Positions 26,266 through 32,862 of a stretch of DNA of 64,000 nt are shown here, piece after piece. How positions within the stretch are numbered: position 1 is the first letter of the stretch; every line of letters begins with the position of its first letter. The notes under the pieces are model-generated. The model was not told where the DNA came from. It did no database searches and was given only the letters and a program-made list of their open reading frames with translations. The translations under genes and the position numbers were made by a program. This DNA comes from Desulfovibrio sp. TomC. GTDB lineage: Bacteria > Desulfobacterota > Desulfovibrionia > Desulfovibrionales > Desulfovibrionaceae. The DNA is taken from assembly GCF_000801335.2 (NCBI RefSeq), contig NZ_JSEH01000003.1:248001-312000 (forward strand). The letters are read 5' to 3'.

Positions 26266-26985
26266 TTATGCCGCTTTGACCCCGGCGTGGAGAAAGACGA
26301 TGCCGCCGGCCATGGCCCGGTAGCCCACGTCGGCAAATCCGGCCCGGCGCATCTCGTCGGCGAGCACGGCTTCCTGGGGGAAGTCGCGGATGGTTTCGGC
26401 CAGATAGCGGTAGGCCTCGTCGTCGCCGGAGACGATCTTGCCGATGAGCGGCAGCACCTGGCGCAGATAGAAATTATACGCCCCGCCCCACATCCGCCGC
26501 TTGCCGGTGCCAAATTCCAGCACAATGAGCCGCCCGCCCGGCCGGATGACCCGAGCCAGTTCGGCCAGGGCGTCCGGGCGCGGCCGGATGTTGCGGATGC
26601 CAAAGGCGATGGCCGCGCCGGCCACCGAGGCGTCGGGCAGGGGCAGGGTGCGGCCGTCGGCCACCACCGGATGGATCTGCCGGCGGGCGGCGGCGTCGAG
26701 CTTGCCCAGGCCCTTTTGCAGCATGGGGCCGCAGACATCGGCGGCCAGCACCAGCCGGGGGCTTTTGCGGGCAATGGCGATGGAGACGTCGAGGGTTCCG
26801 GCGGCCAGATCGAGGATGGGGCCAAGGGGCAGGCCGGGGGCCAGGAGCGTGCGGACCATGGCCCGCCGCCAGACGATGTCGAGGCCGGCCGAGAGCACGT
26901 GGTTGAGCAGGTCGTACGATCCGGCCACCCGGCCGAACATGCCGGCCACGCGGCGGTTGTCGCCGGGAACAGGCAGATCAGCCAT
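26266..26985 (-). CDS. menG: demethylmenaquinone methyltransferase (MenG/UbiE)
   Basis: 239 aa class I SAM methyltransferase that performs the last step of menaquinone synthesis. UbiE signatures: VAGSYDLLNHVLSAGLDIVWRR at the N-terminus, SAM loop ILDLAAGTLDVSIAIA, and AFGIRNIRPRPDALAELARVIRPGG, followed by LEFG and YLAETIRDFP. The ATG at 26985 overlaps the end of the small upstream gene by 8 nt. It completes a menaquinone theme with mqnB, mqnD and the prenyl synthase 3-5 kb away. Confidence 0.95.
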   Translation of the reverse strand: MADLPVPGDNRRVAGMFGRVAGSYDLLNHVLSAGLDIVWRRAMVRTLLAPGLPLGPILDLAAGTLDVSIAIARKSPRLVLAADVCGPMLQKGLGKLDAAARRQIHPVVADGRTLPLPDASVAGAAIAFGIRNIRPRPDALAELARVIRPGGRLIVLEFGTGKRRMWGGAYNFYLRQVLPLIGKIVSGDDEAYRYLAETIRDFPQEAVLADEMRRAGFADVGYRAMAGGIVFLHAGVKAA

Positions 26986-27187
26986 TGTCGCGCCCGCCCT
27001 TGGCGATGACCCGCACGCCGGCGGGCGTGCCCTGTTCGTCCTGGCCACGGCTGATGACCCGCAGCACTTCCTCGTAGATGGGTCCAAAATGCTCGGTGAA
27101 ATTGCCGGGCGAAATACGGCCGGTCTCGACGAACTTGACCACGATTTCCTTGGTCACCTGCAAGGCCAGATTCTCGCGTTTTTCCAT
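26978..27187 (-). CDS. conserved small protein of unknown function, coupled to menG
   Basis: 69 aa, start MEKRENLALQVTKEIVVKFVE at 27187. Predicted helical, with RISPGNFTEHFGPIYEEVLRVI in the centre, no Cys and no membrane segment. The 8-nt overlap with menG implies translational coupling. The GC-rich tail (GTPAGVRVIAKGGRDNG) is less conserved-looking. The longer frame to 27793 is upstream intergenic DNA. I do not recognise the family with certainty. Confidence 0.65.
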   Translation of the reverse strand: MEKRENLALQVTKEIVVKFVETGRISPGNFTEHFGPIYEEVLRVISRGQDEQGTPAGVRVIAKGGRDNG

Positions 27188-27578
27188 GTTGTTGCGTCCT
27201 TCATGGCCGCTGCCCGGCCCTTGGGGCCGGCGGCCTATCGTCTCGGGAACGGTCCCGGAGGCTTCGAGAAAAAACCCGCCCGGTGGGGGAAATGGCCTTG
27301 GACCGTCCAAGAGCAGGGGCCGGGCGGGAAAAGGGAAAAACCAGGGGAGGCACTCCCCTTTTTGCGCTGGCCCTAGCACGGCCGGGTTCGCGCGTCGAGG
27401 GGGCGTCCGGGGTGGGCGTCCGGCGGCAAAAACGGCCCGGGGCGGGGTGCTGCCTGGAAAATGGCTCTTTGGCGTTGTGATTGGAACCATATTTCCGTAA
27501 GGGGAAGGGGAAATCCGAATCCCCGATGTGCGCCGCGCGCTGTCGCAAGCGGGCTTGCCCGGGAAGGGAGCCTCCCGT
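27188..27578. other. 391-bp divergent intergenic region
   Basis: Lies between the minus-strand small gene/menG pair and the plus-strand bd-like cytochrome unit, so it must hold promoters for both. I see several GC-rich inverted repeats (GGGGCCGGCGGCC near 27222; GGGGAGGCACTCCCC near 27346) but no convincing -35/-10 pair or coding frame. Confidence 0.5.
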
Positions 27579-28625
27579 ATGCCGCCGATCTTGTCCATTG
27601 CCCCTGGAACAGCCATCCCCGGCCCCTGGTGGCTTTTCGACCTGCTGCTCGTGGTTGCCTTTACCGCCCATCTGCTGGTGGTCAACGTGGCCCTGGGCGG
27701 CACGCTCCTGGCCCTGCTCTCGCCGGGGCGCAGCCGTGGCGCTGCCGTGGCCCTGGCCAAGCGCCTGCCCGGGTCCGTGGCCGTGGGCGTCAACCTGGCT
27801 ATTCCGCCGCTGCTGTTTGCCTCGGTGCTCTACGGCCAGTACCTCTATACCGCCGCCATCTTGTCGGCTGTTCCCTGGCTGTCGCTTTTCATGGTGGTCA
27901 TGATCGCCTACGCCCTGCTCTACGTGTTCCAGGCGCGGGCGGCGCGTCCTGGTTCGGGACTGGCGGCGGCGGCGGCCGGGGCGCTGTTGCTGGCGGCCAG
28001 CCTCATTTTGGTCAACGTCTCGGTCCTGTCGCTTACCCCGCAACTGTGGAAGCCCTCCTTGACCGAGAACGGCGGCTTGGCGCTGGCGGTGGGCGATGTG
28101 ACTTTTGTGCCCCGCTGGCTGCATTTCGTGACCGCCTCCCTGGCCGTTGGCGGCCTGTACTTGGCCCTTTTTTCCAGCAAGGCCGCCAGGACCGACGCCG
28201 AAGCGGCTGTCCGCAAACGCACCGGGCTTCGCTGGTTCACCTTCGCCACCCTGGCCCAGATTCCCATCGGGCTGTGGTTTCTCCTGTCGTTGCCGCGCGG
28301 CATCATGGAACGGTTTTTCGGCGCGCACTCCGAAACCACGCTGGCCTTCATGCTCGGCCTGGGGCTGGCTGCGGCGGCGCTTCTTAACGCCGTGCGGGGC
28401 CGGGCCGGCCGGGCGGCATTTTTTATCGTCGTCACCGTCGGGTGCATGGCGGCGGTGCGCGAGCTGGTGCGCCAAGCCTATCTGGCCCCGCAGTTTTCGC
28501 CCGAGTCGCTGCCCGTGGCCTTTCAGGCCGGACCGCTGATCATGTTTTTGGCCAGCTTTGCCGCCACCGCCGCAGCCGTGGTCTGGGCTGTCATGAGCTA
28601 CCGCCGCACGGCGAGAAGGGGATAG
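27579..28625 (+). CDS. CydA-like (CydA'-type) membrane subunit of a bd-like quinol module
   Basis: 348 aa with about eight membrane helices. TM1-2 contain FDLLLVVAFTAHLLVVNVALGG, whose H-x8-GG spacing parallels the heme-ligand helix of CydA. A second similar pattern (WLHFVTASLAVGGLY) opens the C-terminal half. The CydA glutamate pair and GRQPW loop are absent, so it is more like the second, CydA-derived subunit of divergent bd families than CydB. The ATG at 27579 follows AAGGGAG. The next gene begins 4 bp after the stop. It probably forms a membrane complex with that multiheme protein. No experimental family is recognised, and NrfD-like folds are the alternative. Confidence 0.7.
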   Translation: MPPILSIAPGTAIPGPWWLFDLLLVVAFTAHLLVVNVALGGTLLALLSPGRSRGAAVALAKRLPGSVAVGVNLAIPPLLFASVLYGQYLYTAAILSAVPWLSLFMVVMIAYALLYVFQARAARPGSGLAAAAAGALLLAASLILVNVSVLSLTPQLWKPSLTENGGLALAVGDVTFVPRWLHFVTASLAVGGLYLALFSSKAARTDAEAAVRKRTGLRWFTFATLAQIPIGLWFLLSLPRGIMERFFGAHSETTLAFMLGLGLAAAALLNAVRGRAGRAAFFIVVTVGCMAAVRELVRQAYLAPQFSPESLPVAFQAGPLIMFLASFAATAAAVVWAVMSYRRTARRG

Positions 28626-28629
28626 GGTC

Positions 28630-31263
28630 ATGGAATTTCCTGTCTGGCAGCTGGCTTCGACCGGCGGCGGTTTTTGGATCGTGCTTATTGCCGTGCTCCA
28701 TGTCTATGTGGCCTATTTTGCCGTAGGCGGCGGGCTTTTTTTGGTCCTGACCGAAGCCCGGGCCAGAACACTCGGCTCACAGCCGCTGCTGACTTATCTG
28801 CATCGCCACACCCGGTTTTTCCTGCTGCTGACCATGGTCTTCGGCGGCCTTTCCGGTGTCGGCATCTGGCTGACCATCTCCCTGCTCTCGCCCCAGGCCA
28901 CGTTGGTGCTGGTGCGTACCTTCGCCTGGGGCTGGGCCACGGAATGGGCGTTTTTTGCCGGCGAGATCGCGGCCCTCCTGGTCTACTACTACGGCTTTGA
29001 TCGCCTTGCGGCCAAACGCCACATGCTGGTCGGCTGGCTCTATTTCGCCTTTGCCTTCCTGTCGCTCTTTGTCGTCAACGGCATCGTGGGCTTCATGCTC
29101 ACCCCGGGCCAGTGGCCGGCGACCATGGATTTCTGGGATGGCCTGTTTAATCCCACGTTCTGGCCTTCGCTGGTCCTGCGTTTTGCCCTGGGACTGCTTC
29201 TGGCCGGACTGTTCGGTTTTGCCACGTCTCTTGGCATCCCGGACGAAGAAGCGCGGGAGACGATGCTGCGGGCTTCGTGCCGCTGGGTTGTGGCGGCGGC
29301 CCCGGTGCTGCTCCTTTCCGGCTGGTGGTACGCGGGTGTTTTGCCGGCCTCGGTGCAGGATTTCCTGCTGCGTCGTTCAAGTGAGCTGGCGACCTGCCGG
29401 GCGGTCTGGCCGGCGCTGCTGTTGGCTGCCGCCGCCGGTTCGCTGGCCCTGGTCACCCAGCTGCCGCTGGCCCTTCGCCGGGTGCTGGCCGTGGCCTTGC
29501 TCCTGGTTGGGCTTGGGCTGGTCGGAACCTTTGAAACCATGCGCGAGGGAGCCCGCAAGCCCTGGCTGATCGAAGGGATGCTCTGGTCCACGGACATCCG
29601 GCCCAGTCAGGCCGCGCCCTACGATGCACCGCTTTTGCCCCGGGCCAAATGGGCCACGGTCACGGACGTGACCCCGGAAAACCGGCTGGCGGCCGGGCAG
29701 GCGCTTTTTACCCTGGAGTGCGTCAGCTGCCACAGCATCGACGGCCCCATCCGGGACATCAAAAAATTCACCAACCGGGTCGGCATCGAGGGCATGGAGG
29801 CCTATCTCACCGGCCAGGGCAGGATTTTTACCCACATGCCGCCCTTTCTCGGTTCCCCGGCCGAGCGAAACGCCCTGGCCGCCTATGTGGTCGAGGGCCT
29901 AAACGGCCACGCCCCGCAAGTGCAAAAGCCGGTCGACATCACCCCGGCCGAAGTCGCCATTCCTGCCTTTGATCTGGAGAATGCCGGGCATCTGGTCCTG
30001 GCCGTGGGGGAACTGGGCGTGGCGGCCATGGCCGGCTGCGACGGCTCGTTTTCCCTGGCAGTGCCGGGGAACGGCCTCAAAGCCGTGGTCATCAAGCGCG
30101 ACGTCATGCCCGAAGTGGTCACCGAGGGGGCAACCGTGCGCTACGCCGCCCCGGACGGGGCCAAAAAGCCGGACGCCCATCTGGAATTCTGGAAATACGC
30201 CAAGACGCTGGTTGGCAAGGACCTGCCGGCCAACACCTCGACCACGGGCCTGACTCCGGATGGCGCCATGACCCTGGCCGGCAAGGCCTTTACAGCCTCC
30301 GGCATCCCGGTTTCGCCCCTGTCCGACGACGGTAAAATCAATCCGTATCCGGTCTTTACCGTGACGGCCGCCGACGCCGCCGGCGCGGTCCTGGCCCAAA
30401 CCAAGGCCGTGGCCGCCGTGTCCACGGAAATGGGCTGCAAGACCTGCCACGGCGGGAACTGGGCCATCGACGCGGCCACCGGCGTGGCCACGCCCACGGC
30501 CCAGGCGCTCCTGGCCGTCCACGACAAGCGAAACGGCACCAAGCTCGTCCAGAGCGCCGCTGCCGGTGAGCCAGTCGCCTGCTTCGGCTGCCATCCCGAT
30601 GCCGGCCCGAGCGCGGCCGGTTTGCCCGGCCGGCCGGAACTGTTAAGCCTCTCGGCCGCGATCCATGGCTTCCATGCTTCGTACATGACCGGCCTTGGGG
30701 AAGAAGCCTGCAACCGCTGCCATCCGACCGCGCCAAACGGCGTCACCCAGGCCCAGCGCGACAACCACGCCGCCGCCGGCGTCGGCTGTCCCCGCTGCCA
30801 CGGCTTCATGGAAGACCATGCCATTTCGCTTCTGACCTTTGAAAAGGCCGCCGGCAAGGCTGCTGCCGCCCGGCTGCTGGCTCCTCTGGCCCCGCGAAGC
30901 GTGGCCACCACCGCCGCAGTCCATCCCCGGGCCGCCTGGACCCAGCTGCCCGACTGCCTGACCTGCCACAAAGGCTTTACCCGGCCGGCCAAGGACGCCA
31001 CGGCCTTTAACACCTGGACCAAGGACGCAGCCGGGTTGTTTCGCAACCGCACCGAGGACACCGGCAACATCCCGTGCGCCGCCTGCCACGGCAGTCCCCA
31101 TGCCACCTACGTGGCGATTAACGACTACGGCCTGGATGTGAACAACATCGCGCCGATGCAGTACATGGGCGCTCCCGGAGTCATTGCCTCGGGCAAGCGC
31201 TGCGACGTCTGCCATACGGTTGAGATGGAAGGGGATGCCCACCATCCCAATATGATAAAGTAG
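28630..31263 (+). CDS. CydA-like quinol oxidase domain fused to a periplasmic octaheme cytochrome c region
   Basis: 877 aa. Residues 1-320 are membrane helices matching CydA by eye: N-terminal His in LIAVLHVYVAYFAVGGG, TEWAFFAGEIAALLVYYYGFDRL (compare E. coli E99/E107 region and GWDRL), and EGARKPWLIEG (compare EYGRQPW). A short loop replaces the long Q-loop. A class I-like cytochrome domain follows with CVSCH at 364, then a Cys-poor domain (about 420-600), then seven motifs: CKTCH 603, CFGCH 651, CNRCH 694, CPRCH 720, CLTCH 776, CAACH 816, CDVCH 858. Predicted to pass electrons between the quinone pool and periplasmic hemes. The direction and the terminal acceptor are unknown. Confidence 0.8.
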   Translation: MEFPVWQLASTGGGFWIVLIAVLHVYVAYFAVGGGLFLVLTEARARTLGSQPLLTYLHRHTRFFLLLTMVFGGLSGVGIWLTISLLSPQATLVLVRTFAWGWATEWAFFAGEIAALLVYYYGFDRLAAKRHMLVGWLYFAFAFLSLFVVNGIVGFMLTPGQWPATMDFWDGLFNPTFWPSLVLRFALGLLLAGLFGFATSLGIPDEEARETMLRASCRWVVAAAPVLLLSGWWYAGVLPASVQDFLLRRSSELATCRAVWPALLLAAAAGSLALVTQLPLALRRVLAVALLLVGLGLVGTFETMREGARKPWLIEGMLWSTDIRPSQAAPYDAPLLPRAKWATVTDVTPENRLAAGQALFTLECVSCHSIDGPIRDIKKFTNRVGIEGMEAYLTGQGRIFTHMPPFLGSPAERNALAAYVVEGLNGHAPQVQKPVDITPAEVAIPAFDLENAGHLVLAVGELGVAAMAGCDGSFSLAVPGNGLKAVVIKRDVMPEVVTEGATVRYAAPDGAKKPDAHLEFWKYAKTLVGKDLPANTSTTGLTPDGAMTLAGKAFTASGIPVSPLSDDGKINPYPVFTVTAADAAGAVLAQTKAVAAVSTEMGCKTCHGGNWAIDAATGVATPTAQALLAVHDKRNGTKLVQSAAAGEPVACFGCHPDAGPSAAGLPGRPELLSLSAAIHGFHASYMTGLGEEACNRCHPTAPNGVTQAQRDNHAAAGVGCPRCHGFMEDHAISLLTFEKAAGKAAAARLLAPLAPRSVATTAAVHPRAAWTQLPDCLTCHKGFTRPAKDATAFNTWTKDAAGLFRNRTEDTGNIPCAACHGSPHATYVAINDYGLDVNNIAPMQYMGAPGVIASGKRCDVCHTVEMEGDAHHPNMIK

Positions 31264-31289
31264 CTGGCTGGAGACGGGGAGGAGCGGAC

Positions 31290-31622
31290 ATGAAGACGCT
31301 GGTCATACTGGTTGTGCTGGGCCTGCCCGGCTTCGCCTGGGCTGCCGGGGACATTGCGGTGACGCCGCAGATGCGTCAGGCCATGCAAGACAAGATGCAT
31401 GCCCAGTGTCTGGCCAAGGAAGGGGAATTCGCCAGACAAGGCTACACCAAGCCCCAGATTGCCGCGATCTGCAAATGCGCCACCCAGCAGACGGCGGCCC
31501 TGCTCAATTCCCGGACCGTCAACTACATCCTGACCCACGGTTCCATGCCCGAGGAGATGGAGCGCAAGGTGGCCTCGGCCACCGAAGGGTGCATCCGGTC
31601 GAGCACCATGATCCGGAAATAG
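31290..31622 (+). CDS. small secreted four-cysteine protein of unknown function
   Basis: 110 aa. The signal peptide MKTLVILVVLGLPGFAWA is cleaved near residue 18. The mature part has four Cys (C40, C61, C63, C101) and reads as a helical domain (VTPQMRQAMQDKMHAQCLAK, then YTKPQIAAICKCATQQTAALL). No CxxCH heme motif. GGGGAGGAG precedes the ATG, and the gene starts 26 bp after the multiheme gene. It is therefore probably the third gene of that operon and may be an accessory periplasmic factor. Family not recognised. Confidence 0.72.
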   Translation: MKTLVILVVLGLPGFAWAAGDIAVTPQMRQAMQDKMHAQCLAKEGEFARQGYTKPQIAAICKCATQQTAALLNSRTVNYILTHGSMPEEMERKVASATEGCIRSSTMIRK

Positions 31623-31630
31623 CGGCCAGC

Positions 31631-31710
31631 CTGTCCCGGCCAGACGTCTGTTTGGCCGGGACAGCAGCACTAAAACGCCCCGCCGGCCCAGCCGGTGGGG
31701 CGTTTTAGTG
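31631..31710. terminator. double-hairpin bidirectional terminator
   Basis: Hairpin 1: CTGTCCCGGCCA / TGGCCGGGACAG (31631-31664), a perfect 12-bp stem. Hairpin 2: CACTAAAACGCCCC / GGGGCGTTTTAGTG (31668-31710), a 14-bp outer stem with a CCGGC/GCCGG inner stem; its AAAA and TTTT flanks serve both strands. Separates the bd-like operon from the DUF362 gene. Confidence 0.85.
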
Positions 31711-31734
31711 CGCGAAGACAGCCGCAGGCCGGGG

Positions 31735-32862
31735 TCAGACCCGGATAAGTTCGTACTCCGGCCGCCCCAGGCCAATGGCTGCGCCGTGGGCAAAGGTCAT
31801 GTCGCCGCGGGTCCATTGCCACAGGGCCGTGAACTTGTCCTCGCCAGACGGCAGGCCGTGTTCGAGCTTGCACTCGGGACAGGCCGCCTGCTCGTTGACC
31901 AGATCGAGGCAGGCCTTGTCCAGGGCCACCGGGTCGGTCGAAGCCAGAAAGCCGATGTCCGGCACAATGGGCGCGTCGGACCAGGGCACGCAGTCGCAGT
32001 CGGGCGTGACGTTGACCAGGAAATTGATATACCCGACCCGGCCTTCTTTGCCGGTCACGGCACCCAGGGCGTATTCCACCATGCGCTCCATAAAGGGCAC
32101 GATCTCGGTTTTCCAGTCGATGCTCATGGCTTTTTTCGGACACACCGTCAGGCACTCGCCGCAGCCGATGCAGACGTCCTTGCTGATCACGGCTTTTTTC
32201 TCGTCCAGGGCGATGGCCCCGACCGGGCAGACCCTGAGGCATTCGGCGCAGCCGATGCACTTTTTGGGGTCCACTTCGAAGCGTACGCAGTGCTGGTCCT
32301 GTTTGCCGGCCCGGGGGGCGCAGCCCATGGCCAGGTTCTTGACCGCCCCGCCAAAGCCGGCCAGCTCATGGCCCTTGAAATGGGACAGGACCAGCAGGGA
32401 ATTGGCCCGGACGATGTCGCCGGCGATTTTCACGGTCTGGAAATGTTTGCCGGCAATGGGGACGTTTACGATGTTGGTGCTGTCCAGGCCGTCGGCGATA
32501 ATGACCGGCGCGCCAAGCACCGCGTAATCAAAGCCGTGCTCCACCGCCGTTATGAGATGGTCCACGGCGTTGTGCCGGCTGCCGGAATAGAGCGTGTTGG
32601 TGTCGGCGGCAAAGGGCCGGCCGCCGCAGGCCTTGATGCAGTCCATGACCGCCCGGACAGCGGTGGGGCTTATGTGGGTGTCGCAGCCGCGCTCGCCGAA
32701 ATGGACCTTGACGGCGGTCAGGTCGTCCTTGGCCACAACCTCGCCAAAGCCGGCGGCTTTGAAGAGTTTTTTGATCTTGGCCGTACGGTTGCGATTGGCC
32801 GTTCTGGCCCGCAGATCGGCGAAATAGACCTTGGCCGGTTCCTGGTTGGTGTCCTGGGTCAT
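31735..32862 (-). CDS. DUF362 protein with two [4Fe-4S] ferredoxin clusters
   Basis: 375 aa. The N-terminal DUF362 region begins KVYFADLRARTANRNRTAKIKKLF and contains KVHFGERGCDTHISP and LVLSHFKGHELAGFGGAVKNLAMG. An inserted ferredoxin domain has CIGCAECLRVCP and CIGCGECLTVCP, two [4Fe-4S] sites. The C-terminus has a further Cys cluster (TPDCDCVPW, QAACPECKLEHG). Known family members are cytoplasmic iron-sulfur proteins of uncertain role. The ATG at 32862 overlaps the stop of the upstream mechanosensitive channel gene (ATGA) and has an AAGGAAG site. The pairing with a channel gene offers no obvious pathway. Confidence 0.88.
   Translation of the reverse strand: MTQDTNQEPAKVYFADLRARTANRNRTAKIKKLFKAAGFGEVVAKDDLTAVKVHFGERGCDTHISPTAVRAVMDCIKACGGRPFAADTNTLYSGSRHNAVDHLITAVEHGFDYAVLGAPVIIADGLDSTNIVNVPIAGKHFQTVKIAGDIVRANSLLVLSHFKGHELAGFGGAVKNLAMGCAPRAGKQDQHCVRFEVDPKKCIGCAECLRVCPVGAIALDEKKAVISKDVCIGCGECLTVCPKKAMSIDWKTEIVPFMERMVEYALGAVTGKEGRVGYINFLVNVTPDCDCVPWSDAPIVPDIGFLASTDPVALDKACLDLVNEQAACPECKLEHGLPSGEDKFTALWQWTRGDMTFAHGAAIGLGRPEYELIRV

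Follow-up and report, generated by a model that had tools for sequence, protein, structure and literature searches.

We analysed a 64,000-nucleotide stretch of Desulfovibrio sp. TomC (the window), taken from contig 3 of a 5.07-Mb genome (G000), and in it a short operon in which a membrane domain related to CydA, a subunit of the cytochrome bd oxidases, is joined in one protein to eight c-type hemes. A preliminary description, made from the letters alone, placed three open reading frames here, and all three are found in the open reading frame list at those positions. The features of the operon are as follows.

27579 to 28625, plus strand: partner, a CydA'-like polytopic membrane protein of 348 aa (open reading frame list, profile comparison).
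28630 to 31263, plus strand: fusion of CydA, cytochrome c, a beta domain and a heptaheme part, 877 aa.
28630 to 29589, plus strand: CydA-fold membrane domain of the fusion, residues 1-320, with H24, E105, E112, R184, E302, E306 and R309.
29662 to 29919, plus strand: class I monoheme cytochrome c domain, residues 345-430, with CVSCH at 364.
29977 to 30429, plus strand: beta-sandwich-like linker domain, residues 450-600.
30430 to 31260, plus strand: heptaheme module, residues 601-877, with seven CxxCH and eight conserved non-motif His.
31290 to 31622, plus strand: small secreted-looking protein of 110 aa with four Cys.

The closest named relative of the 877-aa protein is in Desulfovibrio sp. DV (91%), and other named loci with it are those of Solidesulfovibrio magneticus and S. 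alcoholivorans, so we term the window genome Solidesulfovibrio-type. The 110-aa gene is present in the loci of the genus only, and for that reason its product is probably not a core part of the system.

The structure model gives residues 1-320 of the fusion the CydA fold, which would place the protein in the bd superfamily. In the comparison of folds, bd chains score 23-27 and chains that we take to be NrfD-like more weakly, 15.6-17.8, a gap that by itself leaves room for the NrfD family. The model has a mean predicted local distance difference test score of 65.7, with residues 766-856 below 50, and its heme arm is poorly modelled. In Pfam, Cyt_bd_oxida_I (PF01654) matches the protein with an E-value of 2.3e-5, under the cut-off; the scores are 23.6 bits in the protein scan and 26.5 bits in the genome search, for a curated cut-off of 26.2 bits. 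The residues of the di-heme site, H19/E99/E107/E445, have their equivalents in H24, E105, E112 and E306 of the window. In the wider family, H24, E112 and R184 are each conserved in 36/37 rows and E105 in 35/37 (counts that exclude the fragment L088), and E302/R305/E306 in 37/38 rows. The membrane module is thus CydA-derived, as the preliminary description held. That description also reported the loss of the b558 His and of the long Q-loop, and both heme-b558 ligands (His186/Met393) and the Q-loop are indeed missing from the fusion, which sets it outside the quinol-oxidising bd enzymes. Its name for the domain, a quinol module, is not supported, since the canonical quinol and b558 features are the ones lost while the di-heme residues are kept.

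The CxxCH counts and the domain scan bear out eight c hemes in one reading frame with the CydA domain. Eight CxxCH are present in 29 of the 30 rows compared, the window included, and the remaining row (L029) has seven. The protein also matches the Pfam models for Cytochrome_C7, MtrC/MtrF domain II/IV and monoheme cytochrome c. In the monoheme domain, M403 is invariant (24 rows) and is the likely Met ligand. The heptaheme module has non-motif His at 631, 679, 682, 713, 730, 824, 871 and 872; the first six are present in 57/57 heptaheme copies, H871 in 55/57 and H872 in 54/57. Because seven hemes come with eight spare conserved His, the sequence suggests that these hemes are bis-His and electron-carrying. 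The beta domain resembles p53 and sugar hydrolases weakly in fold, similarities on which we place no interpretation.

The partner is a second protein of CydA fold, a paralogue of the membrane domain of the fusion, and is not recognisable as CydB, in agreement with the CydA'-like label it had been given. Its placement nearer CydA than CydB comes from profile comparison, since comparing the fold of the partner with those of CydA and CydB did not discriminate. In partner rows (excluding two spurious L080 rows and the outlier L090), H182 is present in 36/36 and H31, in the first transmembrane helix, in 35/36; we see neither the acid pair nor an equivalent of E445. In a profile alignment, one without significance (E 0.057), H182 falls tentatively opposite the b558 His. 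A structural role is the probable one for the partner, which may also hold a heme at H182. A match to TrbL_5 (E 0.0029, below cut-off, in 1/25 members) is attributed to chance.

Matches to the 877-aa protein are found in 41/59 near genomes. The partner is present in 53 of the 297 phylum genomes sampled, and the heptaheme module (E 1e-20) in 31 of the same 297 and in 146/247 genomes of the order. Our joint scan includes 89 loci, numbered with L, many of them fetched by the partner or heptaheme search; they overlap in part, L040 and L135 being one contig. A CydA part occurs in 76 of the 89, and in 73 of these 76 the partner is present, always beside the CydA part; the loci lacking it are L078 and, near a contig end, L033 and L148. 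The heptaheme module is found in 58/89 loci: it shares a reading frame with CydA in 40, has a frame of its own within the same locus in 6, and occurs without CydA in 12. The wider core of the system consists of the partner and a CydA of about 450 aa that carries a single c heme. Octaheme fusions occur within the order and, outside it, in L053, L054 and L058-L060; they may extend to a few further families, where long reading frames point to them. Mono-heme relatives occur in Thermus, Agrobacterium and Methylosinus. In an additional branch the partner itself carries two c hemes (L072-L077, and L089 by the tree).

In a 76-row tree of the CydA superfamily, a check that the preliminary description had proposed, all c-heme CydA parts fall in one clade of 50 rows with three branches (support 100/99). 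Canonical CydA, the partners, and a group that we presume to be OR-N-like each stand apart from it; some long-branch joins are uncertain.

Several loci of the scan present other arrangements. Loci L124-L127 and L131 encode a CydA-like protein of a different type, 620-740 aa long, with 10-13 predicted transmembrane helices and no c heme, presumably OR-N-like. Proteins of 334-351 aa at L129:2195-3196 and L130:1565-2617 resemble the partner but match canonical CydA as well, and their genomes additionally carry the main-type partner. At L055:7933-9435, an eight-heme cytochrome with Cytochrome_cB (PF11783) follows a partner and a CydA part with three cytochrome c domains. Finally, L092:8001-12545 (Agrobacterium) and L093:7983-12925 (Methylosinus) are plasmid-borne mono-heme pairs; after each of them come an ATP-binding protein and a response regulator, which likely form a two-component system.

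The genes linked to the split form of the system point to an electron donor. In five split loci from sister genera g20 and g234 (L082, L138, L139, L140, L147), the heptaheme protein has a class III cytochrome c3 domain at its C-terminal end, found by Pfam in L082 and L138 (E about 1e-16) and by a local two-sequence model in L139, L140 and L147. The heptaheme-c3 protein has ten CxxCH and an eleventh site of the form CxxxxCH, verified in L082 and L040. All five loci have the same order on the same strand: partner, CydA-cytochrome c, heptaheme-c3, FdhA, FdhB. FdhA has an in-frame TGA and, by eye, a start resembling a twin-arginine translocation signal. In L138, L139 and L082 it scores 1094-1114 bits, above the formate dehydrogenase alpha cut-off of 814; FdhB in L138 and L082 resembles the beta subunit at 146-160 bits, below the cut-off of 335. 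In L140 and L147, the formate dehydrogenase is named from sequence likeness alone. Heptaheme-c3 also adjoins FdhA, in all cases above the cut-off, in L134, L135, L136, L145 and L146, where the stretch examined has no CydA. Two of these loci, L136:9022-12806 and L145:9366-13208, have divergent heme-copper oxidase genes beside the formate dehydrogenase and heptaheme-c3. COX1 and COX2, with c-heme domains, are present in both; COX3 was scanned in L136 only.

We conclude that the fusion and its partner probably belong to the bd superfamily as a complex fed by cytochrome c, and that this complex is most likely an oxygen reductase. In this reading, formate dehydrogenases and hydrogenases of the periplasm would reduce cytochrome c3, whose electrons would then pass through the heptaheme arm to the class I c heme, and from there to a pair of b/d-type hemes lying towards the periplasmic face of the CydA domain. 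At this di-heme site O2 would be reduced to water, with protons drawn from the cytoplasmic side by way of the conserved pair of Glu; by that route of the protons, the enzyme could be electrogenic without quinol oxidation. What chiefly favours a terminal reductase fed by c-type cytochromes is that the flow from formate to c3 to CydA is downhill and the reverse is not. The divergent reductase that had been offered as an alternative thus gains support. We infer O2 as the acceptor from the kept di-heme residues, the relatives in Thermus, Agrobacterium and Methylosinus, and the two heme-copper oxidase neighbourhoods. A bolder proposal, to which we give slightly less than an even chance, is that formate dehydrogenase, heptaheme-c3 arm and bd-type oxygen reductase form a quinone-independent periplasmic respiratory chain encoded in one operon, of which the window would have a version with the heptaheme arm fused into the reductase.

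A number of observations weigh against this reading. The formate dehydrogenase link is known from sister genera and in the split form, not from the window, and both c3 and formate dehydrogenase are absent from L079, the last of the six split loci. Six loci (L081, L137, L141-L144) have cytochrome c-heptaheme proteins with eight hemes and no CydA part in the stretch, so the heptaheme arm has other uses. Cytochrome c3 occurs in 52 of the 53 partner-positive genomes, so its presence alone proves nothing about the donor. The window genome also encodes two CydA of the canonical kind, both accompanied by a CydB, and the conserved H182 of the partner leaves room for a quinol-linked heme there. In the literature we found no experiment or measurement on any member of the clade.

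The donor side is also compatible with a c3:menaquinone oxidoreductase that would work like Qrc, itself a c3-linked membrane complex of sulfate reducers; the c hemes would then carry electrons from c3 to the CydA/CydA' pair, where menaquinone would be reduced. We regard this as unlikely: it gives no reason for the conservation of the di-heme residues, and the canonical quinol site is lost. A second Qrc-like enzyme is also less needed, since Qrc is present in 138/146 heptaheme-positive genomes of the order (and in 35/101 heptaheme-negative ones; the genomes are related and the counts not independent), a count that also rules out the CydA-heptaheme system as a replacement for Qrc. A menaquinone link could be sought in the UbiE-type gene that adjoins the operon. 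We give it little weight, because this adjacency is seen in the loci of the genus only (L034-L037 and L043, the window itself) and many other loci have flanks of only 1.5 kb.

Quite unlikely is the same wiring with another substrate at the di-heme site, such as nitric oxide, peroxide or another small molecule. The clade is distant in the tree from characterised CydA, such hemes bind other ligands, and strict anaerobes meet nitric oxide and peroxide too; the mono-heme relatives and the heme-copper oxidase genes beside two heptaheme-c3 and formate dehydrogenase loci, however, suit O2 at least as well. Very unlikely is the conduit of the preliminary description, with menaquinol oxidised at the CydA/CydA' pair and electrons leaving via the c hemes to periplasmic or extracellular acceptors: the tentative position of H182 opposite the b558 His, from an alignment without significance, and a heptaheme match to MtrC/MtrF barely above the cut-off (30.9 bits for 30) speak for it, but the Q-loop is lost, the O2-site residues are kept, and the co-encoded formate dehydrogenase and fused c3 of the relatives point the opposite way, requiring uphill flow from menaquinol.

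If the bolder proposal of a chain encoded in one operon is true, sulfate reducers could oxidise formate or H2 at the expense of O2 and generate a proton gradient while bypassing the menaquinone pool. Sulfate reducers do reduce O2 with H2, formate, lactate and other donors, and in several Desulfovibrio species H2 supports the highest rates; D. vulgaris possesses both a bd oxidase of the quinol type and a c553-fed cox oxidase (PMC4383621). For the O2 consumption that H2 and formate drive in Desulfovibrio-type bacteria, the system is a candidate for the route through the membrane. Because gene linkage and fusion name a likely donor, formate dehydrogenase plus cytochrome c3, the prediction of c feeding is testable in culturable sulfate reducers.

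In the 5' region of the operon, a block at 27270-27409 of the window is strikingly conserved in five genus loci, beyond its flanks, and contains a terminator-like hairpin on the minus strand. Rfam has nothing at the gathering threshold in the window; two matches in 26900-27600 (E 2.4 and 3.8) are ascribed to chance. A sigma-70 promoter scan of 27000-32000 finds zero, with 0.4 expected.

The known systems closest to this one are the c-fed bd families, OR-C and OR-N/CydAA', reportedly set out in the classification by Murali, Gennis and Hemp in 2021. As these types are reportedly defined, the fusion agrees with OR-C in having a CydA with a c-type heme domain and no quinol site, and the pair agrees with CydAA' in having a second subunit paralogous to the CydA subunit. 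Our description is therefore a c-type, CydAA'-like bd superfamily member with an octaheme arm, with OR-C as the best-guess label. The name OR-C for a c-fed bd type is also used in PMC13189123. As of 2022, all biochemically characterised bd enzymes were quinol oxidases (PMC9266656), and c-fed ones have been proposed from phylogenomics and are uncharacterised (PMC9266656, PMC10839748), which makes the remark of the preliminary description that known bd oxidases have no c hemes out of date. A CydA-multiheme fusion was not found in the literature searched, outside which lay most subscription papers and the 2021 classification itself.

The system has in common with OR-C and OR-N/CydAA' the di-heme CydA core, the absence of a quinol site, the c-type entry and the CydA'-like second subunit. 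Set against their reported definitions, it differs in the eight c hemes in the catalytic chain, or the split form with one heme plus a heptaheme-c3 protein, and in the operon link to formate dehydrogenase in sister genera. With canonical quinol-oxidising CydAB it shares the CydA fold and the H19/E99/E107/E445-type residues; unlike CydAB, it has no b558 His/Met and no Q-loop, its partner is not recognisable as CydB, and c hemes are present. A duplicated four-helix bundle is common to CydAB and QrcD (PMC6303296), and Tmc, Hmc and Ohc are c3-linked membrane complexes of sulfate reducers (PMC4287179). With these complexes, with Qrc and with multiheme periplasmic formate dehydrogenases the system shares multiheme c arms that collect periplasmic electrons, and the heptaheme-c3 protein is itself found in formate dehydrogenase loci without CydA. 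What separates it from Qrc, Hmc, Tmc and Ohc is the membrane part, which is predicted to be a CydA with a di-heme site rather than an NrfD-like subunit.
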